Shown in pieces: positions 657-61,226 of a DNA stretch of 64,000 nucleotides. Source of the DNA: Beroe forskalii (taxonomy: Eukaryota > Ctenophora > Nuda > Beroida > Beroidae). The notes below the pieces were generated by a model. It was given only the letters and a program-made list of their open reading frames with translations, was not told the DNA's origin and ran no database searches. Each line of letters starts with the position of its first letter. Position 1 is the first letter of the stretch. The stretch lies in the NCBI GenBank assembly GCA_011033025.1, contig WFMF01000069.1, positions 310,001 through 374,000 of the forward strand, read 5' to 3'. The position numbers and the translations under genes are program-made.

Positions 657-3600
657 TGGAGGGGAGCTTCACGCCCTAACGGGAAGTGAGGACCCTCCCA
701 AAACGAATCGGAATCATGACTAAAAATGGTTTCACCGGCCGAAACCCCAAGATGAAGAAACGCGAGTTCAATGACAGTCTTGGCTTTGTCCAGATCAATT
801 TGAACAAGCAACGGCAGGCCACCAAAGATCTGGGAACCTATATCCGCGATATAGATAAACCAATGATATTGGTACAAGAGCCACATGTCAACGGAAAAGG
901 TGTTATCTCTAAGGGGTCATACTGTCTTCGGGCCGCGGCCTGTAAGTCTCGGGAGACACCAATTAGAGCAAGCATCTTTTCCACTCATCCATGGAACGAC
1001 AAGTTTGGTTTAAAGAGTCCATTACAACCGCGGACTGTGCAGTCGTGCAGACTAAGGTGGATGGAGTCGAAACACTAATTGCGTCATGTTACATGGATGG
1101 AACCGATACACAATGCCCATCGCCAGACTTCATGAAAGTCGTTGAGTACGCGAAGAAGCATAGTATCGCACTGATCATCGGAACTGACTCCAACGCTCAT
1201 AACACGGCATGGAATAGCAGGATAGGTGATCAAAAGCGCAAGGAACGAGGGAACAAACTTCTCGAGTACATCCTTGCCAATGACCTGTTTATTGAGAATG
1301 CGGGGTCAACGCCCACCTTTGACAACGGCCGCTGGAGTAATTCTATTGACCTCACGATCACGAACAAGGCCGGGCACAGTCTCGTAGCCGGCTGGTTTGT
1401 GGACGTGAAGGATCGGGTAGAGCACTCCTCGGACCACCGCTTCATCGCATTCAAATCAACAGGGTCAACCCTTCTCGCCAGACAGAACTTCAGAGATATC
1501 TCAAAACCAATTGGGAACACTTTGAGTCTGATCTGAACCTCCGGATGTCTTCCAAAGCCGAGATGTTCAGGAATATCGACTCTGTCGAGAAAATGGACAC
1601 CGCGGCATCTGAACTCTCTTCGTCTATTCTTAGTGCCTTCAACTCGGCGACTGAACTGACATACGTGTCAGCGAAGATTAAACCACTTCCGTGGGATACG
1701 CCAGAGGTGAGGGAAGCTAGGAGGGATATGAGGGCAAAGATAAGGAGAAGACAGCGGAAAATACCTCGGGACTCGGAACTTGATACTATCAGGAAAGAGG
1801 CCCGTAAGAGGTATGAAAAACTGCGGGACAATACTTGGACCGCGAAATACAGGGAATTCTGTGCGAATTTGGAATCCAAATCCGAATCCAAAAGGATATC
1901 CTGTCTCATAAAGGACAACAAGGACACTAAGTTATGTGCGGTTAAGAAAAAGGATGGTCTCCTCACGGAGACGCCATCCGAAACTTTGGACCGCATGACT
2001 GAAGTGCACTTTGATGTCCCTTCACCGGCCGACCCCAACCCTCCGGGCACTGCTGCGGGAGTGGACATCGAAGATCGGTGGAGTCTGGATCACATATTCT
2101 CTGAGAATAGAGTGAAACGGGCACTACAAGAATTCGATCCACTCTCAGCGGCGGGACCGGATGGGGTACGCCCAATCATGCTTCAAAAAGGATGGGGGAG
2201 CATTGGAGGTGCTTTCACGAGCATCGCCAAGGCTAGCTACCGGATGGGGTATACTCCTGCAATATGGAGGGACTCCTCTAGTATCTTTCTCCCGAAACCT
2301 GGGAAGGATGATTACACCAATCCTAAGTCATTTAGGACAATCACACTGTCACCTGTCATCCTGAAATGGATGGAGAGGGTGATTTTGTGGCACATGGAAG
2401 CAGATCTGAAAGTGTACGAGCGCCTAAGCAAGAAACAATTTGGATTCAAGCGAGGAAGCTCAACAACAGCTGCGATCCATAAACTAGTCAGGAAACTCGA
2501 GATGGCCATCCTAAACAAGGGGATGGCGCTCGGGACTTTCCTTGACATAGAAGGAGCGTTCGATAATGTGTCGTTCGACTCAATCGATAAGGCCCTAACC
2601 AAGAACTGCAAATCGCCTGGCGTGAATAGATGGATCATGTCAATGATCGGTCTAAAACGCACCACGGTGCAGGGCAAGGAGAAGGTCATATCCATTTTAC
2701 GAGGATGCCCGCAGGGGGGATTCTATCCCCATTCCTATGGAACCTTGTAATAAACGATCTACTTGAGTTCACCAGGGACAAAATACCGTGCGACCTCCAG
2801 GGGTTTGCTGACGATATATCCCTGGTCTCAGTAGTGACAACGCCTAAACCACCAACTGGCAGCAACCGTCAAGGCTTTGACTCGGATACCCTTCGGGAGG
2901 TAACCCAAAGAAGCCTAAACAGTATCAACCAGTGGTGTAGGGCAAATGGTCTGAAGCTATCTCAGCTGAAGACCCACTGCGTCATGTTTACGAATAGGAG
3001 GAACTGGTCATTCAGTAAGCCCCTGAAAGTAGACGGCGTCGAAATCGAAGTGAGAACTTCCACTAAGTTTCTAGGAATCACCCTAGACTCAAAGCTGACG
3101 TGGAACAATCACATCGAAACTGTGTGCAAGAAGGCCAAATCTATCTTAATGCAGTGCAGGAAAGCGGTTGGTCCCACCTGGGGCCTGAAACCGATCACCA
3201 TGCGCTGGATTTACGAGGTAATGGTTCGACCAATACTCACGTATGGTTCAACGATATGGATTGCTGGCACACAAAAAACGCACAACCAGCAGCTGCTAAA
3301 GGGAGTTCAGAGGTTGGCAAACGTACTTATTACGGGAGCCTTACCTTCGACCCCAACTACAGCGCTGGATGTCGTCACAGGGATTATCCCAATCACGCTG
3401 TGGACTAGGGAGGTCGCTGCGAAGGAAACCATGCGTCTGAAGTGCCAAGGTCATTGGTGCTTCCCTCCGCCTGGAAAGCCTTCAGCGCGCATCACCAGCC
3501 ACATCAGTGAGAATGAGAAGTTTATCAGGGCCCTGCCCAAGGATTTAATTTCCAAAGAACAAGATCCGATGAAACCGATTCTCAGTATAAACCAACGGTT

Positions 3601-4772
3601 CACTGTGCTAGTCCCGTCTCGGGAGGAGTACAAGGAGCCGAAGGGTGAGGACTTTGATGTCGTGTGCTATACGGACGGTTCTAAAATCAACGACCACACG
3701 GGAGCAGGAGTTGTGATCAAAGGTGGACCATCCTGGAGCCACTTGGACCACTGCGAATCCTTCCATCTTGGGCTACACAGTACGGTGTTCCAAGCAGAAG
3801 TCTTTGCTGTTGCTAAAACGGCAGAGATACTGCAGGAACATGCACTGAGTAACACCAAAATCTTGATAAATTGTGATAGCAAATCGGCTATTCAGGCGAT
3901 AAATGCTACGATTATCAAGAGCAAGGTGCCACTTCGGGCATCAAACTCCCTCAACTCACTTGGAAACACCAACAAGGTCACACTTAGTTGGATTCCAGCT
4001 CACAGTGGGTACGAGGGGAACGAGCTGGCGGACCAGACAGCGAAAGCTGGGGCGACCAACTCAAACGACAGCGCATCCAGGGTCTTACTCCCCATACCGC
4101 GTGGGGTATGTTTCGCGGCAATGAGGAGGAAGACCAAAGAGGACTGGATAAGCTCCTACAAAGCTGATCCTCCCAGAATGTTCAACATGATGTGGAGGGA
4201 CAAATTTGCAAAGGAGCTATCCAGTATGGGTAGGAAGGATCTGAGAGTGGCTACTCAACTCCTGACAGGCCACACAGTCCTAAACTACCACCTCAAGAAA
4301 CTGAATCCCGCTGTCCCTGCAACCTGTCCTCTCTGCGAAAGCGAAGATGAAACGGTATCGCACTTCCTGGGGAAATGCCCCTCCCTAGGCAGTATTAGGG
4401 CCGAGTACTTCGACACCTACTACTGTGCAGGTACCGACATCGTGGACAGGTTCAAACTCAACAGGATCGTCAGCTACGCCCACAGGACTGGTCGCCTGGG
4501 TACCTAAGAGTATGCGACGATTCTGCAACTACTTGAGGCTCTGTCCCTCACCGGACTGAGCCTTCAGTCACAGGGATACACTCAAGCCGCCCCCAGAGGA
4601 TGTCGCGGAGGTATCCCTCGCTCCGCCACAGAAGGAGGGGCTCAACCCCGCCGCTGGGTCGGGAACGCCGTCCTGTTCCGACAGGATGGCAACGGGGAGG
4701 AATGGGACTCCCGTCCCATCCGGGCGCCTGGGAGCTCGAAAGCGCTTTCTCGGCCAGTTGCTTCCTCTCCTG
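657..4772 (+). mobile_element. I-group non-LTR retrotransposon, copy A (both ends truncated)
   Basis: The same element occurs at 18312-20245 (plus), 37367-42654 (minus) and 56138-61430 (minus). Copy A begins inside the ORF1/ORF2 junction region (shared sequence starts GGAGGGGAGCTTCACGCCC) and so lacks about 1.1 kb of 5' sequence. It loses similarity about 45 nt before the common 3' end. It keeps the endonuclease, reverse transcriptase and RNase H regions in that order, an arrangement typical of the I group of LINEs. No target-site duplication is visible, as expected for a copy that lost both ends. Confidence 0.9.
716..4507 (+). pseudogene. LINE ORF2 of copy A: endonuclease, reverse transcriptase, RNase H
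   Basis: The start at 716 (MTKNG) matches the ORF2 starts of copies C and D. The N-terminal third is an APE-type endonuclease (GFVQINLNKQRQAT, LVQEPHVNG, later SSDHRFIAF). The RT domain holds FRTITLSPVILKWMERV, RGCPQGG and the catalytic FADD near 2805. The RNase H domain at about 3660-4080 shows YTDGSK, FQAEVFAV, NCDSKSAI and WIPAHSGYEGNELAD. A CPLCESEDETVSHFLGKC zinc-binding motif follows at about 4325. The reading frame changes near 985, 1500 and 2725 through single-base indels, mostly in homopolymers. The last 625 codons are open. Frames inferred from the other copies would give roughly 1,270 residues. It would copy its own RNA into DNA at a nicked target. Confidence 0.85.
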
Positions 4773-14726: not shown

Positions 14727-15279
14727 ACTTAGGAGTGTGATAGGCTTACTTAGGAGTGTGATAGGCTTACTTAGGAGTGTGATAGGCTTACTTAGGAGTG
14801 TGATAGGCTTACTTAGGGGTGTGATAGGCTTACTTAGGAGTGTGATAGGCTTACTTAGGAGTGTGATAGGCTTACTTAGGAGTGTGATAGGCTTACTTAG
14901 GAGTGTGATAGGCTTACTTAATAGTGTGATAGGCTTACTTAGGAGTGTGATAGGCTTACTTAGGAGTGTGATAGGCTTACTTAGGAGTGTGATAGGCTTA
15001 CTTAGGGGTGTGATAGACTTACTTAGCAGTGTGATAGGCTTACTTAGGAGTGTGATAGGCTTACTTAAGAGTGTGATAGGCTTACTTAAGAGTGTGATAG
15101 GCTTACTTGGGAGTGTGATAGGCTTACTTAGGAGTGTGATAGGCTTACTTAGGAGTGTGATAGGCTTACTTAGGAGTGTGATAGGCTTACTAAGGAGTGT
15201 GATAGGCTTACTTAGGAGTGTGATAGGCTTACTTAGGAGTGTGATAGGCTTACTTAGGGGTGTGATAGGCTTACCCACT
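14727..15279. repeat. 21-bp minisatellite, about 26 copies
   Basis: Unit GTGTGATAGGCTTACTTAGG plus A, highly uniform (occasional GGGGTGT or TTAAGAG variants). The period is a multiple of three, so open frames such as repeated GLLRSVI appear on both strands. These are not genes. Confidence 0.95.
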
Positions 15280-17110
15280 CATAACCCACCCCTATCCCCT
15301 CAAAACCCACCCCAATCCACTCATAACCCACCGCTTTCCCCTCATAACCCACCCTTTTACACTCATAACCCACCCCTTTCCCCTCAAAACCCACCCCTTT
15401 CCACTCATAACCCACTCCATTCCACTCATAACCCACCCCTTTCCCCTCAAAACCCACCCCAATCCACTCATAACCCACCGCTTTCCCCTCATAACCCACC
15501 CCATTCCAATCATAACCCACCCCTTTCCACTCATAACCCACCCCTTTCCACTCATAACCCACCCATTTCCCCTCAAAACCCACCCCTTTCCCCTCATAGC
15601 CCACCCCTTTCCACTCATAACCCACCCCATTCCACTCATAACCCACCCCATTCCACTCATAACCCACCCCTTTCCACTCATAACCCACCCCTTTCCACTC
15701 AAAACCCACCCCTTTCCACTCAAAACCCACCCCTTTCCCCTCAAAACCCACCCCTTTCCACTCATAACCCACCCCAATCAACTCATAACCCACCCCTTTC
15801 CACTCATAACCCGTCCCTTTTCACTCATAACCCACTCCTTTCCACTCATAACCCACCCCTTTCCACTCATAACCCACCCCAATCAACTCATAACCCACCC
15901 CTTTCAACTCATAACCCACCCCTTTCCACTCAAAACCCACCCCAATCCACTCAAAACCCACCCCTTTCCACTCATAAACCACCCCTTTCCCCTCATAAAC
16001 CACCCCTTTCCCCTCATAACCCACCCTTTTCCACTCATAACCCACCCCTTTCCCCTCAAAACCCACCCCTTTCCACTCATAACCCACCCCATTCCACTCA
16101 TAACCCACCCCTATCCCCTCAAAACCCACCCCAATCCACTCATAACCCACCGCTTTCCCCTCATAACTCACCCTTTTCCACTCATAACCCACCCCTTTCC
16201 CCTCAAAACCCACCCCTTTCCACCCATAACCCACCCCATTCCACTCATAACCCACCCCTTTCCCCTCAAAACCCACCCCAATCCACTCATAACCCACCGC
16301 TTTCCCCTCATAACCCACCCCATTCCACTCATAACCCACCCCTTTCCACTCATAACCCACCCCTTTCCACTCATAACCCACCCATTTCCCCTCAAAACCC
16401 ACCCCTTTCCCCTCATAGCCCACCCCTTTCCACTCATAACCCACCCCATTCCACTCATAACCCACCCCTTTCCACTCATAACCCACCCCTTTCCACTCAA
16501 AACCCACCCCTTTCCCCTCATAACCCACCCCTTTCCCCTCAAAACCCACCCCTTTCCACTGAAAACCCACCCCTTTCCACTCAAAACCCACCCCTTTCCA
16601 CTCAAAACCCACCCCTTTCCGCTCATAACCCACCCCTTTCCGCTCATAACCCACCCCTTTCCACTCAGAACCCACCCCTTTCCCCTCAAAACCCACCCCT
16701 TTCCACTCAAAACCCACCCCTTTCCCCTCAAAACCCACCCCATTCCACTCATAACCCACCCCTTTCCACTCAAAACCCACCCCTTTCCCCTCAAAACCCA
16801 CCCCTTCCCACTGAAAACCCACCCCTTTCCCCTCAAAACCCACCCCATTCCACTCATAACCCACCCCTTTCCACTCAAAACCCACCCCTTTCCGCTCAAA
16901 ACCCACCCCTTTCCCCTCAAAACCCACCCCTTTCCACTCATAACCCACCCCTTTCCGCTCAAAACCCACCCCTTTCCCCTCAAAACCCACCCCTTTCCAC
17001 TCATAACCCACCCCTTTCCCCTCATAACCCACCCCTTTCCCCTCAAAACCCACCCCATTCCACTCATAACCCACCCCTTTCCACTCAAAACCCACCCCTT
17101 TCCCCTCATA
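15280..17110. repeat. 21-bp minisatellite, about 87 copies, with an 819-bp higher-order duplication
   Basis: Unit CTCATAACCCACCCCTTTCC plus A or C. Rare variant units recur exactly 819 bp (39 units) apart: the CCGCTTTCCC pair at 15331 and 15478 recurs at 16150 and 16297, and ACCCATTTCC at 15561 recurs at 16380. The minus strand carries GGGG and GGG runs in each unit. The 838-codon plus frame and its minus counterparts come only from the repeat. Confidence 0.95.
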
Positions 17111-17401
17111 ACCGACCCTATGCTCCTCAAGCGACCTTTTCCTTTACTTTTGGAGCATTTCCCTTATTTTTAAGCATTTCCCTTATTTTTAAGCATTTCC
17201 CAATTTTAAGGGGATCCCTCATTTCTGCATACGGGCCATTATGTTTATCATAATATAAATTTTCTAAAATTTATTGCGAACGTTCAATAAGGGGGGGGGG
17301 GGGGGGGGGGTGGTTTTGAATTTGTAACAAGTGCGAACATAGGGGGAGGGGTGTCTGAAATTCGGAGAAAAAAGCGAACGTAATTAATGGATGGCCCCTA
17401 A

Positions 17402-18311: not shown

Positions 18312-20245
18312 AGGCTTTGACTCGGATACGCTTCGGGAGGTAACCCAAAGAAGCCTAAACAGTATCAACCAGTGGTGTAGGGCAAATGGTCTGAAGCTAT
18401 CTCAGCTGAAGACCCACTGCGTCATGTTTACGAATAGGAGGAACTGGTCATTCAGTAAGCCCCTGAAAGTAGACGGCGTCGAAATCGAAGTGAGAACTTC
18501 CACTAAGTTTCTAGGAATCACCCTAGACTCAAAGCTGACGTGGAACAATCACATCGAAACTGTGTGCAAGAAGGCCAAATCTATCTTAATGCAGTGCAGG
18601 AAAGCGGTTGGTCCCACCTGGGGCCTGAAACCGATCACCATGCGCTGGATTTACGAGGTAATGGTTCGACCAATACTCACGTATGGTTCAACGATATGGA
18701 TTGCTGGCACACAAAAAACGCACAACCAGCAGCTGCTAAAGGGAGTTCAGAGGTTGGCAAACGTACTTATTACGGGAGCCTTACCTTCGACCCCAACTAC
18801 AGCGCTGGATGTCGTCACAGGGATTATCCCAATCACGCTGTGGACTAGGGAGGTCGCTGCGAAGGAAACCATGCGTCTGAAGTGCCAAGGCCATTGGTGC
18901 TTCCCTCCGCCTGGAAAGTCTTCAGCGCGCATCACCAGCCACATCAGTGAGAATGAGAAGTTTATCAGGGCCCTGCCCAAGGATTTAATTTCCAAAGAAC
19001 AAGATCCGATGAAACCGATTCTCAGTATAAACCAACGGTTCACTGTGCTAGTCCCGTCTCGGGAGGAGTACAAGGAGCCGAAGGGTGAGGACTTTGATGT
19101 CGTGTGCTATACGGACGGTTCTAAAATCAACGACCACACGGGAGCAGGAGTTGTGATCAAAGGTGGACCATCCTGGAGCCACTTGGACCACTGCGAATCC
19201 TTCCATCTTGGGCTACACAGTACGGTGTTCCAAGCAGAAGTCTTTGCTGTTGCTAAAACGGCAGAGATACTGCAGGAACATGCACTGAGTAACACCAAAA
19301 TCTTGATAAATTGTGATAGCAAATCGGCTATTCAGGCGATAAATGCTATCAAGAGCAAGGTGCCACTTCGGGCATCAAACTCCCTCAACTCACTTGGAAA
19401 CACCAACAAGGTCACACTTAGTTGGATTCCAGCTCACAGTGGGTACGAGGGGAACGAGCTGGCGGACCAGACAGCGAAAGCTGGGGCGACCAACTCAAAC
19501 GACAGCGCATCCAGGGTCTTACTCCCCATACCGCGTGGGGTATGTTTCGCGGCAATGAGGAGGAAGACCAAAGAGGACTGGATAAGCTCCTACAAAGCTG
19601 ATCCTCCCAGAATGTTCAACATGATGTGGAGGGACAAATTTGCAAAGGAGCTATCCAGTATGGGTAGGAAGGATCTGAGAGTGGCTACTCAACTCCTGAC
19701 AGGCCACACAGTCCTAAACTACCACCTCAAGAAACTGAATCCCGCTGTCCCTGCAACCTGTCCTCTCTGCGAAAGCGAAGATGAAACGGTATCGCACTTC
19801 CTGGGAAATGCCCTCCTAGGCAGTATTAGGGCCGAGTACTTCGACACCTACTACTGTGCAGGTACCGACATCGTGGACAGGTTCAAACTCAACAGGATCG
19901 TCAGCTACGCCCACAGGACTGGTCGCCTGGTACCTAAGAGAGTATGCGACGATTCTGCAACTACTTGAGGCTCTGTCCCTCACCGGACTGAGCCTTCAGT
20001 CACAGGGATACACTCAAGCCGTCCCCAGAGGATGTCGCGGAGGTAGCCCTCGCTCCGGCCACAGAAGGAGGGGCTCGACCCCGCCGCTGGGTCGGGAACG
20101 CCGTCCTGTTCCGACAGGATGGCAACGGGGAGGAACGGGACTCCCGTCCCATCCGGGCGCATGGGAGCTCGGAAGCGCTTGCCTCGGCCAGAAGCTTCCT
20201 CTACTGGGTGCCGCCTGGGCACTCGCTGGCCCATCCCCCTTCTAG
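18312..20245 (+). mobile_element. I-group LINE, copy B (5' truncated)
   Basis: Starts within the RT domain (AAGGCTTTGACTCGG) and runs to the family 3' end, GGCCCATCCCCCTTCTAG. It lacks the (TAG)n tail seen in copies C and D. It is almost identical to copy A over 1.9 kb, apart from a 6-nt in-frame deletion in RNase H near 19349 and a few single-base changes. No clear target duplication was found. Confidence 0.9.
18424..19968 (+). pseudogene. LINE copy B ORF2, C-terminal 514 codons
   Basis: An open frame covering the RT thumb region (TSTKFLGITLDSKLTWN), RNase H (YTDGSK, AEVFAV, NCDSKSAIQAI, WIPAHSGYEG) and the zinc-binding CPLCESEDETVSHFLG motif. It ends in KRVCDDSATT, which is probably the true ORF2 C-terminus that copy A loses through a frameshift. 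Most of the RT and all of the endonuclease are missing, so it cannot move by itself. Confidence 0.8.
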
Positions 20246-28170: not shown

Positions 28171-31100
28171 TTAATCCTCATCTTCAGTTACCCAGAGTGC
28201 TCCCTTTTGAGACCTGAAAATATTTGATATTTCAAGTCACGAATCATCTGACGGTGTCATTCAGCAAAACAGTAATCTTGTATGTTAATTCTTCTGCATA
28301 GGTTAGAATAATATTCCACGGAGTGTATAAGGATACTCAAGTATTTCCTAATACCTCACGAGACAAATTTATAAGGTACGAAATTTGGGGACTTTTCGAC
28401 AAAAAATCCCCATATTTTCGTTCCTCATAGTCATACCACCAAATTTCATACCACCCAAAATTTCTATCCCCGGAATCATTGTTCCATTTAAATTCATTCC
28501 GTGAGGTACCTGTTTGAGAAAGCGTTGTTCCTGCTGCACATGTAGTACATGACTCCGGTGTCTTTGAAGGACAGAACGTGCCCGAAGTAGCTGGCAGGGG
28601 CGTTGTCCAGCTCGTCATCTATCTTCGTAGTCTTCACGTCCATTGAGTCCTTCTCTTGGCATACGTTGGTCTTCGTTTTACCTGTGCAAGTACCACAGTG
28701 AGTTTAGCTGCGTATCTAGTGATTCTAAACGTTGCGAACCTTTTGAGGTGCAGCATATTACGCCGCAGCGACTAAACAGGTCGAAACACCACAGTTATTT
28801 TGAATTGATAACGACAAAAATGGTTTATCGCAGGCCTTCTCTAAGTATTCCCGTGTTAGTCATTGAATAATGAATATGACGTACCACAGAAGAAGCCAGA
28901 AGTAGCAAGGCCTATGGCGATGTCGTTGGGGGTAGCCTCCGGGTCAGTGAGAGACTGCACCTTGTCCCAGAAGGTGGTCTCGCTCAGCAGATAGGGAATG
29001 TTCTTCTTCAGATCTGACATCTGCAGCATGTTGTTCCTGTCTGTGCCTGTAATGCGGGGGTATGTCAATGGTGATTGGTTTCAATGGTTTGCACATCTCC
29101 ATCAATCATATGATGGGGCATGGGCTGTAAGGGCTCTGACTGAGTATTTCTGTTGTTCTGTGCTCTATATCTACACAGTGAATGAAGTCCGCTTCCCTAG
29201 TTCCCCGCTTTTACCTGCTGCCCCCTGTCCAGCCGCTCCATCGTTGTTGTTATCGTGAGAGTTGCTCCCCGTCCACTGGATGTGTACCAAGTCGTCCTTC
29301 CTGACCTTGAGTCTGTCCGGCACGAAGTCGTACTCGGTGGCAGGGTAGGTCTGTTCGGCGTTACCTCGCTTTCCTCGCACGTTGAGGTTGTAGAGCCGCT
29401 TGCCTTCCATTGCCTTGGTACGGGGCAGCACCTGGCATTGGGGGAGTGGTTAGGGTGTACTATTTTTTATTTTTTTTATATTTAAAATCACAAATAGGAT
29501 ACACAACAAATTATACATTGTCACTTGCCCTATATAAAATATTTCATGAAACATGAGGGTGCCCCAACCAAAAGAATTGAATAATCATAGTTGAATAAAA
29601 AAATAAACATAGTAGAGTCTAACTTGTTGCATAAGCTATGAGTGGGGCACGTGCAGAGTAGTCGAAACTACTCTATGCTGCACAATTACGCCCTCAAAAT
29701 CTTAAATCACACAGATTGGTTAGTTACATAGTTGGTAAAATTGCATTAAAAGTAGATAAAAATTTATCTTAAAAATATAATAAAATAATGATAAATTACT
29801 TTTATTACTCTGAGTGCTTGAGTGATATAAATCTCTGAAATATACGAATTGAGTAGCGTTAGGTTTCTAACATGTCGACCAATTTTCAGGAGATTTGTGG
29901 ACTCTTGAAAATCTTCGATTTAGGAAATTAGATCAACTGATCAACGATCATTACCGTGTAGACGTGAGATCTGTCCTGGAATACTCTGCCAAACTGAGCT
30001 GTGTTGATAGCCATCTTGAGGGTCTGTCCATTTCCAAGGATATCTAGCTGTGGTCCGTTCTTTAGGGTTCTGAGTTATTCAAGCAATTAGAAATGGATGA
30101 GACGTCAAAGCATGGTTGGGGCGCTCGTGCGGAATGGCAGATGACCGTGACCTAATTTTCGTCAGGCAGTACAGGAAAAAAAACAATATTTGAAAGTAGA
30201 TGTCTCATGAAAAACAATCTTTCTGCTAGTTGATATGCCTCCCAGTGAACTCACTCCTCGCCGTCCTTGTCAGAGAAGGTGTTGAAAGGGTCGTAGTCGG
30301 TGGTGGAGATGTTGTACCGCAGCCTAAGGACGCACCGCTTGGCTTCCTGGCTCGGGAAGAAGGGCAGGTCTATGTCAATCCGGGAGGTGTTCAGGTTGGG
30401 GGAGGTGTCTCCATCCTCGGGAGGTGCGTAGTACGCGTTACCTGGGGGAGGGAAGTTGAGGAACTAGGGAGGGAGGTTGTGAGGTTACCTGGGGAGGTGT
30501 CATGATTATCGTGATACTGATATGTCATCTAGTGGTATGATACGTCATGATACTGATATACTCATGCTTCCGCCCGAAAAGTAGAGTTCTACTTATCAGT
30601 TGAATCCAATCGATTGGACGTAAAATTGATATGTTTTCTTCTGTCTCCAAATCAGCCACTCACCGTTGTGGTTTTGCTCGTGAGGTGGGTGCCTTGTCGC
30701 AGATTACTTCAGGTGCCTGCACTATACAGTACTTCTCAACGTCATCAGTCTGACGGAATTGAACCATTAAAACTTAGAGAATCAGAAATTGATTAGAGAA
30801 TTAAGAATTTTGGTCTGAAACTTGGACCGGTTTCTCAAGAAGCAGCCCAAAATTTCTGTTATGGAAGTTTAGCTGACTCTACGTCTACTTGTAAACCTCC
30901 CTCTACCCTGATAAGCTGATACATTAGATTCCATTAGACTACTGAAACTGACCCTGAGGTTGCCCCAGAAGATCTTGTTCCTGGCGTCAGCAGCTGCCAC
31001 CTTGTTGCACTCCTCCTCACTAGTAACATCCAGCAAGTCCATGAAGGAGACGAACTCGACCCAGGCCCCTCCCTCCTCCCTGCACCCCTGGTGGGTGATG

Positions 31101-34100
31101 CTCTTACCGTACTGCCGCTCGTTCTTGCACCTGCTCAGCACACACCGGAAACGCGACTTCCGGTTGAAGGACTTCGCTTTGATGTCCTCACATCTGCTGG
31201 GGTCTCCGAGCCAAGCGAGGTCGATCCAGGGGGTCCGCTTGAATTTACCTGGGGTCCTGAAATGGTCCAACATAAATATTTCTAAAATAGTCGACGATAA
31301 TTAACGAAATGAATTAAGATTAGTTCGTTACATGAGAATTCTAAGTATGTGCTTCGTCAAGTTTGGTGATGGGTGCTTACTCTAAAACACCACTTACTCG
31401 AACATGTTGGTGGGGTGCCAGTAGGGGTGGTAATTACTTACTCGAACATGTTGGTGGGGTGCCAGTAGGGGTGGTAATTACTACTCGAACATGTTGGTGG
31501 GGTTATGCCAGTAAGGGTAGTAATTACTTACTCGAACATGTTGGTGGGGGGTAGTAGTAGTCCACTTACTCGAACATGTTGGTGGGGTGCCAGTGGTACG
31601 GGGTGCCAGTAGGGGTAGTAATCACTTACTCGAACATGTTGGTGGGGTGCCAGTAGGGGTAGTAATTACTTACTCGAACATGTTGGTGGGGTGCCAGTAG
31701 GGGTAGTAATCACTTACTCGAACATGTTAGTGGGGTGCCAGTAGGGGTAATTACTTACTCGAACATGTTGGTGGGGTGCCAGCAGTAAGGGTAGTAATTA
31801 CTTACTCGAACATGTTGGTGGGGTGCCAGTAGGGGTAGTAATTACTTACTCGAACATGTTGGTGGGGTGCCAGTAGGGGTGGTAATTACTTACTCGAACA
31901 TGTTGGTGGGGTGCCAGTAGGGGTAGTAATTACTTACTCGAACATGTTGGTGGGGTGCCAGTAGGGGTAGTAATTACTTACTCGAACATGTTGGTGGGGT
32001 GCCAGTAGGGGTGAAGTAATTACTTACTCGAACATGTTGGTGGGGTGCCAGTAGGGGTAGTAATTACTCTCGAACATGTTGGTGGGGTGCCAGTAGGGGT
32101 AGTTACTCGAACATGTTAGTGGGGTGCCAGTAGGGGTATCTGTTACCTCGAACATGTTGGTGGGGTGCCAGTAGGGGTAGTAATCACTTACTCGAACATG
32201 TTAGTGGGGTGCCAGTAGGGGTAGTAATTACTTACTCGAACATGTTGGTGGGGTGCCAGTAGGGGTAGTAATCACTTACTCGAACATGTTGGTGGGGTGC
32301 CAGTAGGGGTAGTAATTACTTACTCGAACATGTTGGTGGGGTGCCAGTAGGGGTAGTAATCACTTACTCGAACATGTTGGTGGGGTGCCAGTAGGGGTAG
32401 TAATCACTTACTCGAACATGTTGGTGGGGTGCCAGTAGGGGTAGTAATCACTTACTCGAACATGTTGGTGGGGTGCCAGTAGGGGTAGTAATTACTTACT
32501 CGAACATGTTGGTGGGGTGCCAGTAGGGGTAGTAATCACTTACTCGAACATGTTGGTGGGGTGCCAGTAGGGGTAGTAATCACTTACTCGAACATATTGG
32601 TGGGGTGCCAGTAAGGGTAGTAATCACTTACTCGAACATGTTGGTGGGGTGCCAGTAGGGGTGGTAATCACTTACTCGAACATGTTGGTGGGGTGCCAGT
32701 AGGCGTTGATCACTTACTCGAACATGTTGGTGGGGTGCCAGTAGGGGTAGTAATTACTTACTCGAACATGTTGGTGGGGTGCCAGTAGGGGTAGTAATTA
32801 CTTACTCGAACATGTTGGTGGGGTGCCAGTAGGGGTAGTAATTACTTACTCGAACATGTTGGTGGGGTGCCAGTAGGGTAGTAATTACTTACTCGAACAT
32901 GTTGGTGGGGTGCCAGTAGGGGGTAGTAATGATACTTACTCGAACATGTTGGTGGGGTGCCAGTAGGGGTAGTAATTACTTACTCGAACATGTTGGTGGG
33001 GTGCCAGTAGGGGTAGTAATTACTTACTCGAACATGTTGGTGGGGTGCCAGTAGGTGTGCCTCGAACATGTTGGTGGGGTGCCAGTAGGGTAATTACTTA
33101 CTCGAATTGTTGGTGGGGTGCCAGTAGGGGTAGTAATTACTTACTCGAACATGTTGGTGGGGTGCCAGTAGGGGTAGTAACATGTTGGTGGGGTGCCAGT
33201 AAGGAGCAATTACTCGAACATGTTGGTGGGGTGCCAGTAGGGGTAGTAATCACTTACTCGAACATGTTGGTGGGGTGCCAGTAGGGGTAGTAATTACTTA
33301 CTCGAACATGTTGGTGGGGTGCCAGTAGGGGTAGTAATTACTTACTCGAACATGTTGGTGGGGTGCCAGTAGGGGTAGTAATCCCGTTCCTCAGGGCACT
33401 CGTACCCACTCCTCTGTCCGCCGTTGTTTTGCCGGGTTTTTGAGGCTGTCACGTAACCAATGGTGTCCGGCTGCAGCTGCTGGTCAGCGTGGAACAGACC
33501 TGGTAAGAATATTATGTTGAATGCAGTTCAGATGTTGGGAAAACAAATCACACCGGTTTACTATTCTGCTACTGAGAATTGTTCGGCATTTAAATTTGAG
33601 TGTTCGTTGTATTCGATTTTAATCTCGGTGCCACTCGTTCAGACTTCCACCTAACATTTCCTCACTTCTGTAGTTCTGTAATCTGGGTTTGTGTTGAGAA
33701 ACTTACCGCCGTTAGCCTCCCTGTGTTTGCAGTTATCGTACCACCAGGCTGTCTCATGAACTCCTTTGACATCGTCCACATCCACCTCCCATATGTTCTT
33801 CACTCGGGCTGCGTATGTCGTGTCAGCTTCATTCTTTGCTGGGTTTCGGTAGTTCTGAAATCATGGATGCTAATCTTGTTCATTATTTTCTCATCACCTA
33901 AGCTTTTTGTTTACCCCCTACTCCCTCTCACCCAACTCCCCAGTCCCCACTCCTCCTTACTACAACTCCCCGTACCCGTAGTCCCTTTATCCCCTTACTC
34001 TACGTACCCCTTACTAATTGAAATTCACCCCCACTCCATCTTACATCTACCCCACCACTACTTCCCCACCCCTTCTCCCCCACCCCAATCCCCTATTCCA

Positions 34101-35830
34101 TACTCCCCTATACCCCTACTCCCTTATTCCCTACCCCACCCCTTTTCCCATAACTCCACTCCCTACCCCCACCCCCTATTCCCCATAACTCTACTCCCCC
34201 CCTACTCCTCCAACCACTTTCCCCCATCCAATCCCCTCCCCTCCCCAAACCCTACACCCCCCGCCCTACTCTCCCCCAACCACTCCCCTCCCCATCCCCA
34301 CCCAACTCCCCCTCCCTGCTCCCCAGTCCATACTCCCCCACCCTGCTCCCACCCCTGCTCCCCCACCCTATTCCCCCTCCCCTACTCCCCCCAACTCCCC
34401 ACCCCTGTTCCCTAATCCCCTTCCTTGCTCCCCCACTTTCTACTCCCCCACTCCCTACTCCCCATCCCTGCTCCCCTGTCCCCTACTCCTTCCCCTCCCC
34501 CCACTCCCCACCCCTACCCCCCCCCTCCTCCTCTCCCCACCCCTACCCCCCCACCCATCCCTGCCCCCACATCCCTACTCCCCTTCCCCTGCTTCCCTAC
34601 TCCGCCACCTCTACTCCCCTACTCCCCCACCCCCTACTCCTCCACCCCCCACTCCCCCTCCCCTTCTCCTCCTCCTCTTCTCCCCCACCCCCTTCTCCCC
34701 TACACCCCACTCCTCCTCCTCTGCTCTCCCACTTTCTACTCCCCCACCCCACTTTCCCTCCCCACATACATTGGTAGCGGTGCTCACTCCGTCCCTCAGG
34801 TAGAACCTTCTCTCGGAAATGTCAGGTTCTGACCGTGTTGCTCCATTAGGGTAGTCCTCATCAGTTCCATTCCTACCACACATGTACTGAGATGGATGGG
34901 AGTCGTTATTAATGAGGACTCTACAGATAGACCTTTTATTGAGAAATCAAAATTTCTCATCAAAATTGATCCTTCATAATTCACGTTTATAAAAACAAAA
35001 TCCACTGTTTTAATTTCAAACAAGGGCACCTAAGCACCTACGAAACGAAAATAATGGGGAAATTTAAGAGTTGAATTCATCCAGTATGGACTATGGACCT
35101 GTATGATCCACTCACCTGAATAACAAAGTTACAGTTCAGTTTCTCGTTGTCCCCACAACCATGCTGGTTGGTCCACTCGACGGCAAGCTTTGAAGCCTCC
35201 GCTATGCTCGGTCCACTCGCGTAGTATTGCTGCGATTAATTCGTTTTCAGTCAAATGCTAATTGTTCCTTACAACTCCTAAATTTGTGTCGACTAGCGTC
35301 AATGAACTGGTTCATGAACTGGTTCATATATCAGATACAACATGAAATCGTAGGTACTAAAATACTTACAATACTGAAATGTTAATACTGAAATATCGGA
35401 ATACCGTTATGAATTGGTAAAGCTGAGAATGCTTACCATGGCATACTGCCGCCTGACTTCGCTCGCAAAGTCCTTGTCCAGTCGGTCCCCTGTGTTGTAT
35501 CCACCTTTGTTGTTGTTCTGGGAGTCAAACAGTCTGTTTGCGTTCGCTCTGTTCGCTGTGTTCTCGTTCAATCTGAGCGATGGAAGTGTAACAAGTCCGG
35601 GACCAAAATCAAAATGATCCACGTGAAGTAATGGATCCCGCACTGGTCGACGAAAGTCGAAATTATTCCGGAATGGTCATTGCTTATTTAGTTATTTATA
35701 CTTAAAACGAGTCGAACATAAATATACTGACTTCGTTCAATCTGTTATTGGAACCCCTCGGATTCTGTAGGTACACATCTGACACCACAATACCGACTGT
35801 TACCGCCAAGATCAAAATCCCGGCCTTCAT
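28171..35830 (-). CDS. DD3-3-like secreted or membrane glycoprotein, 14 exons
   Basis: Chained minus-strand exons: 35732-35830, 35437-35562, 35116-35229, 34770-34886, 33707-33854, 33346-33499, 30953-31256, 30664-30676 (uncertain), 30255-30441, 29955-30069, 29215-29431, 28885-29046, 28510-28681 and 28192-28213 (or to a stop at 28171). The phases match at every junction. About 645 residues result. They begin with a signal peptide ([17 protein letters not shown]) and [16 protein letters not shown]. Recognised family motifs are [75 protein letters not shown] and SQKG. This is the family of Dictyostelium protein DD3-3, found in many protists and invertebrates; its molecular function is unknown. 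Many cysteines and NxS/T sites fit an extracellular protein. Whether it ends at 28171 or continues to a membrane anchor at 26021-26084 is unresolved. Confidence 0.85.
28352..28508. mobile_element. Small TIR element (MITE) inserted at a splice donor
   Basis: Ends are CCTCACGAGACAAATTTA on the left and inverted CCTCACGGAATGAATTTA on the right, each flanked by TA. The interior has TTTGGGGACTTTTCG and AAATCCCCATATTTTCG. The same family lies at 50442 and 50830. The TA duplication and small size suggest a Tc1/mariner-type non-autonomous element. Confidence 0.7.
28510..28681 (-). CDS. DD3-3-like exon 13, donor rebuilt by a transposon end
   Basis: Reads [15 protein letters not shown] ... [19 protein letters not shown], then SRNNAFSNR. 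The donor is ACAG|GTACCT, and from TACCT onward the sequence belongs to the TIR element at 28352-28508. If the donor fails, translation reads four codons (YLTE) of transposon end and stops at TGA (28494-28496). If it works, exon 14 continues with SQKG as in other family members. Confidence 0.82.
28885..29431 (-). CDS. DD3-3-like exons 11-12
   Basis: Exon 11 (29215-29431): [20 protein letters not shown] ... [19 protein letters not shown], then an Asn/Gly-rich linker, exit GCAG|GTAAAA. Exon 12 (28885-29046): [20 protein letters not shown] ... TSGFFC, exit TGTG|GTACGT. Confidence 0.9.
29955..30441 (-). CDS. DD3-3-like exons 9-10
   Basis: Exon 9 (30255-30441): [11 protein letters not shown] ... 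[18 protein letters not shown] then [16 protein letters not shown], exit GA|GTGAGT. Exon 10 (29955-30069): [18 protein letters not shown] ... [17 protein letters not shown], exit ACG|GTAATG. These are among the most conserved blocks of the family. Confidence 0.9.
30953..31256 (-). CDS. DD3-3-like exon 7
   Basis: Starts after TTTCAG, with its first base completing Glu from exon 6. Contains [18 protein letters not shown], a cysteine-rich stretch ([27 protein letters not shown]) and ends in FWGNLR. The donor AGG|GTCAGT is less canonical than the others. The link to exon 9 needs a small exon; 13 nt at 30664-30676 (QNHNG) fits both phases and resembles the family's NHLGN motif, but it is tentative. 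Confidence 0.85.
31390..33388 (-). repeat. Intronic minisatellite of exon end plus 5' splice site, about 46 units
   Basis: On the minus strand each unit of about 44 nt is the last 38 nt of exon 6 (coding [11 protein letters not shown]) followed by GTAAGT. The last plus-strand unit is exon 6 itself. I counted about 46 units; about 40 keep CGA|GTAAGT, while others have a damaged donor (near 31491, 32069, 32103, 32147, 33060, 33181 and 33211). The array fills nearly the whole 2,089-nt intron, leaving about 130 nt before the exon 7 acceptor. Using any later donor would add a unit beginning with an in-frame TAA. Confidence 0.95.
33346..33854 (-). CDS. DD3-3-like exons 5-6
   Basis: Exon 5 (33707-33854) contains [18 protein letters not shown], with phase 1 exit GGCG|GTAAGT. 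Exon 6 (33346-33499) runs from [12 protein letters not shown] to [11 protein letters not shown] and exits as CGA|GTAAGT in phase 2. The last 38 nt of exon 6 plus its donor are the unit of the intron minisatellite that follows. Confidence 0.9.
33915..34763. repeat. C-rich low-complexity tract inside intron 4
   Basis: Plus-strand CTCCCCACTCCC-type sequence for about 850 bp; the transcribed strand is therefore G/A-rich with very many GGG runs. The long proline/serine frames here are artefacts. It lies between exons 4 and 5 of the DD3-3-like gene. Confidence 0.9.
34770..35229 (-). CDS. DD3-3-like exons 3-4
   Basis: Exon 3 (35116-35229): [15 protein letters not shown] then [18 protein letters not shown], donor CAG|GTGAGT. 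Exon 4 (34770-34886): [15 protein letters not shown] ... [12 protein letters not shown], donor AAT|GTATGT. Both are in phase 0. Confidence 0.88.
35437..35830 (-). CDS. DD3-3-like exons 1-2 (signal peptide and N-terminal motif)
   Basis: Exon 1 (35732-35830) starts at the ATG whose product is a clean signal peptide; upstream in-frame codons exist but would spoil it. It ends LNE with GAA|GTCAGT. Exon 2 (35437-35562) follows an AACGAG acceptor and reads [17 protein letters not shown] through QYAM, with ATG|GTAAGC. The LNE coding is present at both junction sides, so the exact joint could shift by a few bases. Confidence 0.85.
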
Positions 35831-41471: not shown

Positions 41472-42450
41472 GATTCCGATTCGTTTTGGGAGGGTCCTCA
41501 CTTCCCGTTAGGGCGTGAAGCTCCCCTCCAAGTGCAGGGGACAGAAAGTCCCCTGCTTTCCAACGAGTGGTCTTCCAGCCCGCAATTACACCACAGCACT
41601 GAATCCGGGGACACATGCTGCGTATGTTTACGGTGTAAGAAGACCACGCACCGACTTCGCCCGTTTGATGAAGAGTGTTATCAGTATGCGCGCGGGTTTT
41701 CCGCGCGCACCGCCTGATAATTGGATATATGCGCAAAATCATCAATAGAAATGTCATCGCGCCTTCCGTCATTAAAGTATAGATAACGTACCAGCGCCTA
41801 TGCAACTTCTTATCAGAATAATGCACACATACCGTTTTCCCATCCACGTTAGGCACTCCTTTGAGGGGAGGCCATGCTGTGGTGAGAGATTCCCCAGCCA
41901 TGCTAGGCACTCCTTTGAGGGGAGGCCATGTTTTGGTGGGAGTTTCCCCAGCCATTCGCAGAGCTACCTTGAAAGGTCTCCACGTTCTGGTGGGAGTGGG
42001 CCCGACGTCGCTCGGTGCCCCTCCCGTATGGATCCCCGTTCTTTCCGTCCCTCCCCCCACCCTGTTTGATTCTCCTTTGAAAGGATATCGCACTGTGGTG
42101 GGGTTCAGTTCAGTCAGATCAGGTCCTACACGTGGAAGGGTCGTTGCTAATCCGGACAGTGACACACAGTCTCCCGGCTCGCGATGGTAGAGCCATGCGC
42201 TGCCCAGAGTCCTGGTGTAAAGCAGGGTGCGTACGCAGTTAGCGCTGCCTTCATCCTCATAAAGAGTGTAGAGACAACTTCTAACTGTTTCCGCGAAAGA
42301 TGTTAAATAAAGCAAATCCATAAAACACGGGAAAGCAGCAGGCATAAGCCGAGAGAAAAGAGATGTGCCACTCGTAGGCATGACGATGATGCCCGTCCGG
42401 ACCGTGGCGCCGAACCAAGGAGGGTCCCTTGCTGGTTGGAGTCCAGACAA
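41464..42450 (-). CDS. LINE copy C ORF1, 328 codons, no recognised domain
   Basis: An open frame upstream of ORF2 that ends at TAA (41464-41466) and overlaps the ORF2 start (ATGACTAA), so ORF2 would need reinitiation or a frameshift. The middle contains an imperfect repeat (WPPLKGVPSMAGES / WPPLKGVPNVDGKT). A hydrophobic stretch (MTFLLMILRIYPIIRR) lies toward the C-terminus. No CCHC knuckle, RRM or other usual ORF1 motif is visible. It could be a real but unusual ORF1 or simply an open 5' UTR. Copy D has the same frame, interrupted once. Confidence 0.45.
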   Translation of the reverse strand: MSGLQPARDPPWFGATVRTGIIVMPTSGTSLFSRLMPAAFPCFMDLLYLTSFAETVRSCLYTLYEDEGSANCVRTLLYTRTLGSAWLYHREPGDCVSLSGLATTLPRVGPDLTELNPTTVRYPFKGESNRVGGGTERTGIHTGGAPSDVGPTPTRTWRPFKVALRMAGETPTKTWPPLKGVPSMAGESLTTAWPPLKGVPNVDGKTVCVHYSDKKLHRRWYVIYTLMTEGAMTFLLMILRIYPIIRRCARKTRAHTDNTLHQTGEVGAWSSYTVNIRSMCPRIQCCGVIAGWKTTRWKAGDFLSPALGGELHALTGSEDPPKTNRNHD

Positions 42451-52254: not shown

Positions 52255-52354
52255 NNNNNNNNNNNNNNNNNNNNNNNNNNNNNNNNNNNNNNNNNNNNNN
52301 NNNNNNNNNNNNNNNNNNNNNNNNNNNNNNNNNNNNNNNNNNNNNNNNNNNNNN
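52255..52354. other. Assembly gap (100 N)
   Basis: Exactly 100 N, the usual placeholder for a gap of unknown size. It may hide the 5' part of the adjacent LINE and possibly host exons. Confidence 0.99.
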
Positions 52355-60247: not shown

Positions 60248-61226
60248 GATTCCGATTCGTTTTGGGAGGGTCTCACTTCCCGTTAGGGCGTGAAGCTCCC
60301 CTCAAGTGCAGGGGACAGAAAGTCCCCTGCTTTCCAACGAGTGGTCTTCCAGCCCGCAATTACAACACAGCACTGAATCCGGGGACACATGCTGCGTATG
60401 TTTACGGTGTAAGAAGACCACGCACCGACTTCGCCCGTTTGATGAAGAGTGTTATCAGTATGCGCGCGGGTTTTCCGCGCACACCGCCTGATAATTGGAT
60501 ATATGCGCAAAATCATCAATAGAAATGTCATCGCGCCTTCCGTCATTAAAGTATAGATAACGTACCAGCGCCTATGCAACTTCTTATCAGAATAATGCAC
60601 ACGTACCGTTTTCCCATCCACGTTAGGCACTCCTTTGAGGGGAGGCCATGCTGTGGTGAGAGATTCCCCAGCCATGCTAGGCACTCCTTTGAGGGGAGGC
60701 CATGTTTTGGTGGGAGTTTCCCCAGCCATTCGCAGAGCTACCTTGAAAGGTCTCCACGTTCTGGTGGGAGTGGGCCCGACGTCGCTCGGTGCCCCTCCCG
60801 TATGGATCCCCGTTCTTTCCGTCCCTCCCCCCACCCTGTTTGATTCTCCTTTGAAAGGATATCGCACTGTGGTGGGGTTCAGTTCAGTCAGATCAGGTCC
60901 TACACGTGGAAGGGTCGTTGCTAATCCGGACAGTGACACACAGTCTCCCGGCTCGCGATGGTAGAGCCATGCGCTGCCCAGAGTCCTGGTGTAAAAAGCA
61001 GGGTGCGTACGCAGTTAGCGCTGCCTTCATCCTCATAAAGAGTGTAGAGACAACTTCTAACTGTTTCCGCGAAAGATGTTAAATAAAGCAAATCCATAAA
61101 ACACGGGAAAGCAGCAGGCATAAGCCGAGAGAAAAGAGATGTGCCACTCGTAGGCATGACGATGATGCCCGTCCGGACCGTGGCGCCGAACCAAGAAGGG
61201 TCCCTTGCTGGTTGGAGTCCAGACAA
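60240..61226 (-). pseudogene. LINE copy D ORF1 equivalent, one frameshift
   Basis: Same frame as the 328-codon ORF in copy C (MSGLQPARDPSWFG ... GGTERTGIHTGGAPSDVG), with an extra A-run base near 60995 breaking it. The WPPLKGVP repeat is conserved. Confidence 0.5.

Follow-up and report, generated by a model that had tools for sequence, protein, structure and literature searches.

Intron 6 of a DD3-3-like gene is almost entirely filled by a minisatellite whose unit, of about 44 nt, is the end of exon 6 joined to the start of the intron, and the donor site is thereby repeated dozens of times. With a probability of roughly two in three, we read this array as a tolerated minisatellite spanning an exon-intron boundary, of the kind described as mirages in amphioxus, in which the first donor is chosen and the remaining copies have no selected function. 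The array appears to be a very long representative of a known type of repeat rather than a new control device.

The array and its host gene

The host gene lies on the minus strand of the window (the whole 64,000-nt stretch of DNA that was analyzed) at 28174..35830, and its proposed 14 exons, with a start codon at 35830, were drawn from the sequence, paralogs, and homologues. Exons 1 to 9 were placed by sequence, and introns 1 to 8 have GT..AG ends; exons 10 to 13 were placed by translation and paralog matches, and exon 14 by translation alone. Exons 1 to 13 are matched in paralogs. A protein search returned 1,052 homologues with E values of ≤0.001, and the gene is called DD3-3-like because many of the named proteins among the best 120 of these are DD3-3 or DD3-3-like. 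The top homologue is 47% identical across the whole query, and the highest identity among the 120 matches listed is 54%, over 30% of the query. Pfam gave no family for the protein, Rfam gave no match at gathering score in the 64,000-nt window, and the solved-structure search gave two weak matches without meaning (E values of 0.44 and 0.81).

Exon 6 (33346..33499, minus strand; 154 nt) ends in GAT TAC TAC CCC TAC TGG CAC CCC ACC AAC ATG TTC GA, and these last 38 nt plus GTAAGT make up the full repeat unit, position 1 of which is A or G in later units. By wrap-around alignment, the array comprises 46 units from 33383 to 31392 (minus strand), including exon 6's own copy, and TRF assigned it a period of 44; the repeats start immediately past exon 6. 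Intron 6 (31257..33345, minus strand; phase 2) is 2,089 nt long, and 1,954 nt of it, or 93.5%, is array. An exact GTAAGT was found in 39 of the 46 units by string search, from 33345 to 31397 and each time after TTCGA, with the first at 33340..33345 (minus strand). All 39 exact donors read CGA/GTAAGT from −3 to +6; at the position after this nine-base site, the first donor has A and the others have A or G. When either base is allowed at position 1, 21 units are identical to the consensus, while the other 25 carry indels or substitutions. These figures bear out the first-pass annotation, which had described about 46 units, each made of the final 38 nt of exon 6 followed by GTAAGT, with about 40 intact donors, in over 90% of a 2.1-kb intron; direct reading, TRF, and alignment agree on that anatomy. 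The unit edges and the exact identity with the exon support a tolerated minisatellite.

An 88-nt query of two units gave 26 genome matches, all within the array and none found elsewhere by a search that skips simple repeats and very common words. We rejected a chance string, since the GTAAGT count and the confinement of all genome matches to the array are far beyond chance. Long near-identical arrays are hard to assemble, and the array could be real with its length collapsed or expanded by the assembler. An amphioxus mirage was indeed aberrantly assembled in a draft genome, according to PMC3087553. Here, however, the units carry many private variants in irregular order and the array contains no N (within the window, N occurs only in a run at 52255-52354), and we regard a wrong copy number as highly improbable.

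Other repeats occur in the window. Two stretches, at 41839-41955 and 60613-60729, have a 54-nt repeat unit in common; the reading frames near them are presumably reverse-transcriptase-like, and similar frames lie at 680-4507 and 18313-19968. At 14727-17118, two minisatellites with 21-nt units, in about 26 and 88 copies, abut each other, with long open frames on both strands.

Paralogs and the older intron

A protein query from exons 6 and 7 recovered, besides the window gene itself, paralogs located on five further contigs. On one of these, C77, both copies are interrupted at the same codon and in the same phase by introns of 150 and 330 nt that lack an array, and their donors there read GTAAGTAAC and GTAACAATA. 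In the window gene, the 141 nt that begin with the last donor and run to the acceptor (31257..31397, minus strand) are close in length to the 150 nt of intron 6 in C77 copy 1 and are probably the whole older intron. Since the C77 paralogs keep a short intron free of repeats at the same place and in the same phase, a short older intron was inflated on its 5′ side, which again supports the tolerated minisatellite. The copies on C395, C1091, and C803 continue through the intron 6 site without an intron, and the copy on C1058 looks different at this site.

In the C395, C1091, and C803 paralogs, the exon matches follow one another directly, with no introns between them; the window and C77 copies, in contrast, are intron-rich. 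The C395 copy shows a frame change after exon 10. A tree was built from 22 DD3-3 proteins, namely, 18 of the 120 homologues listed, the window protein, and these three paralogs, with C77 and C1058 left out. The window protein falls in a set of six with the C395, C1091, and C803 proteins and two other proteins (100/98). Oikopleura comes next outside this set (93/88), but its branch is long and we do not trust the placement.

The edges of the array, GG/GATTAC upstream and GTAAGT/GGTG downstream, would permit a joint with an overlap of at most one base. We therefore propose the following course only as a reconstruction from these edges. A 44-nt segment that starts within exon 6 and extends to position +6 of a phase 2 intron of about 141 nt would have been duplicated in tandem with at most one base (G) of overlap at the joint, and the copies would then have risen to 46 by unequal exchange or slippage. 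All extra copies lie downstream of the first donor and so are intronic, leaving the coding sequence intact, given that the first donor is used. The array would be tolerated, perhaps with some loss to unproductive splicing. This course fits the suggestion of the first-pass annotation that an exon-intron boundary was amplified without destroying the exon, for which there are published precedents.

Both the DD3-3-like gene and its paralogs have many intronic minisatellites, and this abundance, together with a boundary duplication at intron 1, is a further reason for favoring a tolerated minisatellite. At intron 1 (35731..35563), a 12-nt direct repeat, CAGATTGAACGA, stands at the end of exon 1 and again at the end of the intron, and intron 1 of the C77 paralogs sits about ten bases upstream of that of the window gene; thus, the start of exon 2 seems to have been duplicated and intron 1 to have slid afterwards. 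The other 12 introns have longest shared boundary words of 4 to 9 nt. Intron 4 (34769..33855) is 915 nt long and consists mostly of a G-rich minisatellite that starts soon after its donor. A C77 paralog carries a 15-nt minisatellite of about 111 copies after exon 11 (L032:6284-7934), and its exon 12 was not found within the 10 kb examined.

Donor choice and donor conservation

To keep the frame, exon 6 must be joined to exon 7 (30953..31256, minus strand) from the first donor, whose frame exon 7 matches in the gene model and the paralogs; no other exact donor preserves it. When the later exact donors were joined to exon 7, the extended exon read TTC GAG TAA in every case, with the stop one base past the normal end of exon 6 (38 of 38; the seven units without an exact GTAAGT were left out). 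Exon 6 would then be 198 to 2,102 nt long and the intron 2,045 to 141 nt. The claim that only the first donor keeps the frame and that later ones add TAA is thus borne out, and the array was rejected as a source of new coding exons through its exact donors.

The immediate stop would suit a working array of decoys, in which the extra donors bind U1 or divert transcripts to early-stop messages and copy number sets gene output. Consistent with such a role, the predicted pairing of the donors with the U1 end is moderate and nearly equal for A-type (−7.2 kcal/mol) and G-type (−6.4 kcal/mol) units, compared to −9.3 kcal/mol for the intron 5 donor and −14.2 kcal/mol for a consensus site. On the other hand, U1 is abundant, and one locus could hardly titrate it. 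Selected decoys should also be conserved beyond the rest of the unit, and the comparison of six-base windows across the 46 units did not find them so. In the alignment of the units to the consensus, where gap placing in damaged units is partly arbitrary, the donor hexamer had no substitutions; the same was true of 7 of the 38 six-base windows at positions 2 to 44, the donor's own included (manual count from the alignment table). Deletions per site were more frequent in the donor than in the exon-derived part (2.83 versus 1.11). The hexamer was whole in 38 of 46 aligned units (38 rather than 39 because one donor with an adjacent extra base was scored as damaged), and of 38 other six-base windows, 9 were less intact, 1 was equally intact, and 28 were more intact. 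These data argue against special conservation of the donors and favor a tolerated minisatellite.

Published repeats point both ways. In human CBS, more copies of a 31-bp exon-intron repeat go with lower enzyme activity (PMC5188458, PMC1395315), which favors decoys; the mirages of amphioxus are reported as silent (PMC3087553, PMC3902484), which counts against them. Altogether, a working decoy array is quite unlikely. The first-pass annotation had proposed that the intron sequesters U1 or tunes expression by nonsense-mediated decay; neither proposal gains support, given that the donors are no better preserved than most of the unit and that the amphioxus arrays reportedly leave splicing undisturbed, although the CBS data do suggest for the second that copy number can lower activity. 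There is also a slim chance that the array acts as a rheostat, in which 39 identical donors would compete, the productive share of the mRNA would fall with copy number, and unequal exchange would create heritable or somatic differences in output.

What, then, would single out the first donor? A better site was rejected as the reason, with all 39 donors identical from −3 to +6, and with identical nine-base sites the choice must depend on position or context. Greater openness of the RNA was rejected as well: in RNAplfold predictions, the first donor was the least open of the 39 at both settings. Its unpaired probability was 0.00032 under one setting and 0.00015 under the other, compared with medians of 0.0061 and 0.0026, respectively, among the remaining donors. 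Structure thus offers no explanation for a preference for the first donor, and the predicted closure of this site speaks against the tolerated minisatellite.

Exon definition could provide the context. According to PMC9225289, minigenes in which the introns on either side were 365 nt long and the CAG/guaagu donor was present in two identical copies spliced only from the upstream copy, which agrees with a tolerated array. Furthermore, in human events with nearly equal sites, the same paper reports that the upstream donor is favored under exon definition and the downstream donor for short introns, while before strength matching a downstream preference appeared in all four intron classes; the evidence was obtained in transfected cells and from a human database rather than in this animal. 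Exon 6 is flanked by introns of 207 nt upstream and 2,089 nt downstream. Provided that 207 nt qualifies as short, the arrangement is a short-long layout, which PMC9225289 treats as exon defined for donor choice, and from this layout and those results we infer that the first donor is used. Exon definition would pick it because it closes a 154-nt exon, whereas later donors would give longer exons with a stop.

The same paper also supplies an argument to the contrary. Seven of the nine measured introns in the gene are 169 to 229 nt long (for the ninth, the acceptor edge was placed approximately), and a preference of short introns for the donor nearest the acceptor, as in PMC9225289, would yield a nonproductive message; splicing across introns in this animal may favor the last donor and a dead message. 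Such a preference would suit a damaging array, with most transcripts mis-spliced and the gene decaying. Exon 8 could represent a second lesion: an A run near 30672 contains a base that two C77 paralogs lack, and the assembled frame does not continue into exon 9. The gene may therefore not be functional, which would also weaken the case for a tolerated array, but this single base may be an assembly error as well as a real lesion. Against decay, introns 1 to 8 retain GT..AG ends, the exons match paralogs, and exon 6 is still identical to the repeat consensus with its reading frame kept. We therefore consider a damaging array unlikely.

Comparison with known boundary repeats

With its 39 identical sites in a single intron, the array amounts to a natural duplicated-donor experiment; provided that the gene is expressed, donor use would reveal which kind of position governs the choice, that across the exon or that across the intron. 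It is also a case of intron growth by copying of an exon edge that would leave the protein untouched, and it probably extends mirage-type repeats beyond amphioxus to another animal, as no amphioxus name occurs among the 120 homologues listed. In the open-licence papers searched, in the parts that these sources offered, we saw no larger donor copy number.

The closest counterparts are the mirages of amphioxus, which PMC3087553 describes as minisatellite-like tandem duplications of exon-intron boundaries. There, BflGb6 has an acceptor-side repeat with 6 and 3 units of 150 to 160 bp in two haplotypes, BflGb9 has a donor-side boundary repeat of 157 bp, and the units of the Adh3 mirage are 10 to 72 bp. 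The Adh3 data and reverse transcription-PCR of the globins suggest no interference with regular splicing (PMC3087553); the Adh and TnC mirages are likewise reported without such interference, and imperfect mirages are described in PGBD5 (PMC3902484). This reported silence is one more argument for a tolerated minisatellite here. Like the arrays of Adh3, BflGb6, BflGb9, TnC, and PGBD5, the present one is a tandem boundary repeat that copies splice signals beside the true exon: the unit alignment and the gene model with its paralogs place the unit across the boundary of a real gene, and most units carry the signal. It differs in lying on the donor side with a 44-nt unit and 46 units, in another gene family, and, judging by the protein search, not in amphioxus; splicing and instability were studied there, while our array is known from its sequence. 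Homogenization that spares the edge units, as in BflGb6, was not seen in our array, the first unit of which equals the consensus and the last of which is one base off; that trait is reported for one published array and was not counted as defining a mirage.

A second counterpart is the 31-bp VNTR of human CBS, c.1444_1467+7(16_21), with 16 to 21 copies (PMC2630376). By its name, the CBS unit joins 24 nt of exon end to 7 nt of intron start, and it is present in many copies as here; each CBS unit would also contain a donor, as most of ours do. Unit length, gene, and species differ, and it is in human CBS that copy number has been tied to activity. Finally, tandem exonic duplication has been linked to intron gain and sliding in Drosophila near intron pairs and in human segmental duplications (PMC2891723, PMC2812944). 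In those cases, as here, tandem duplication of an exon edge alters gene structure; in contrast to them, no new intron has arisen in the DD3-3-like gene, and an older one has been lengthened on its 5′ side.
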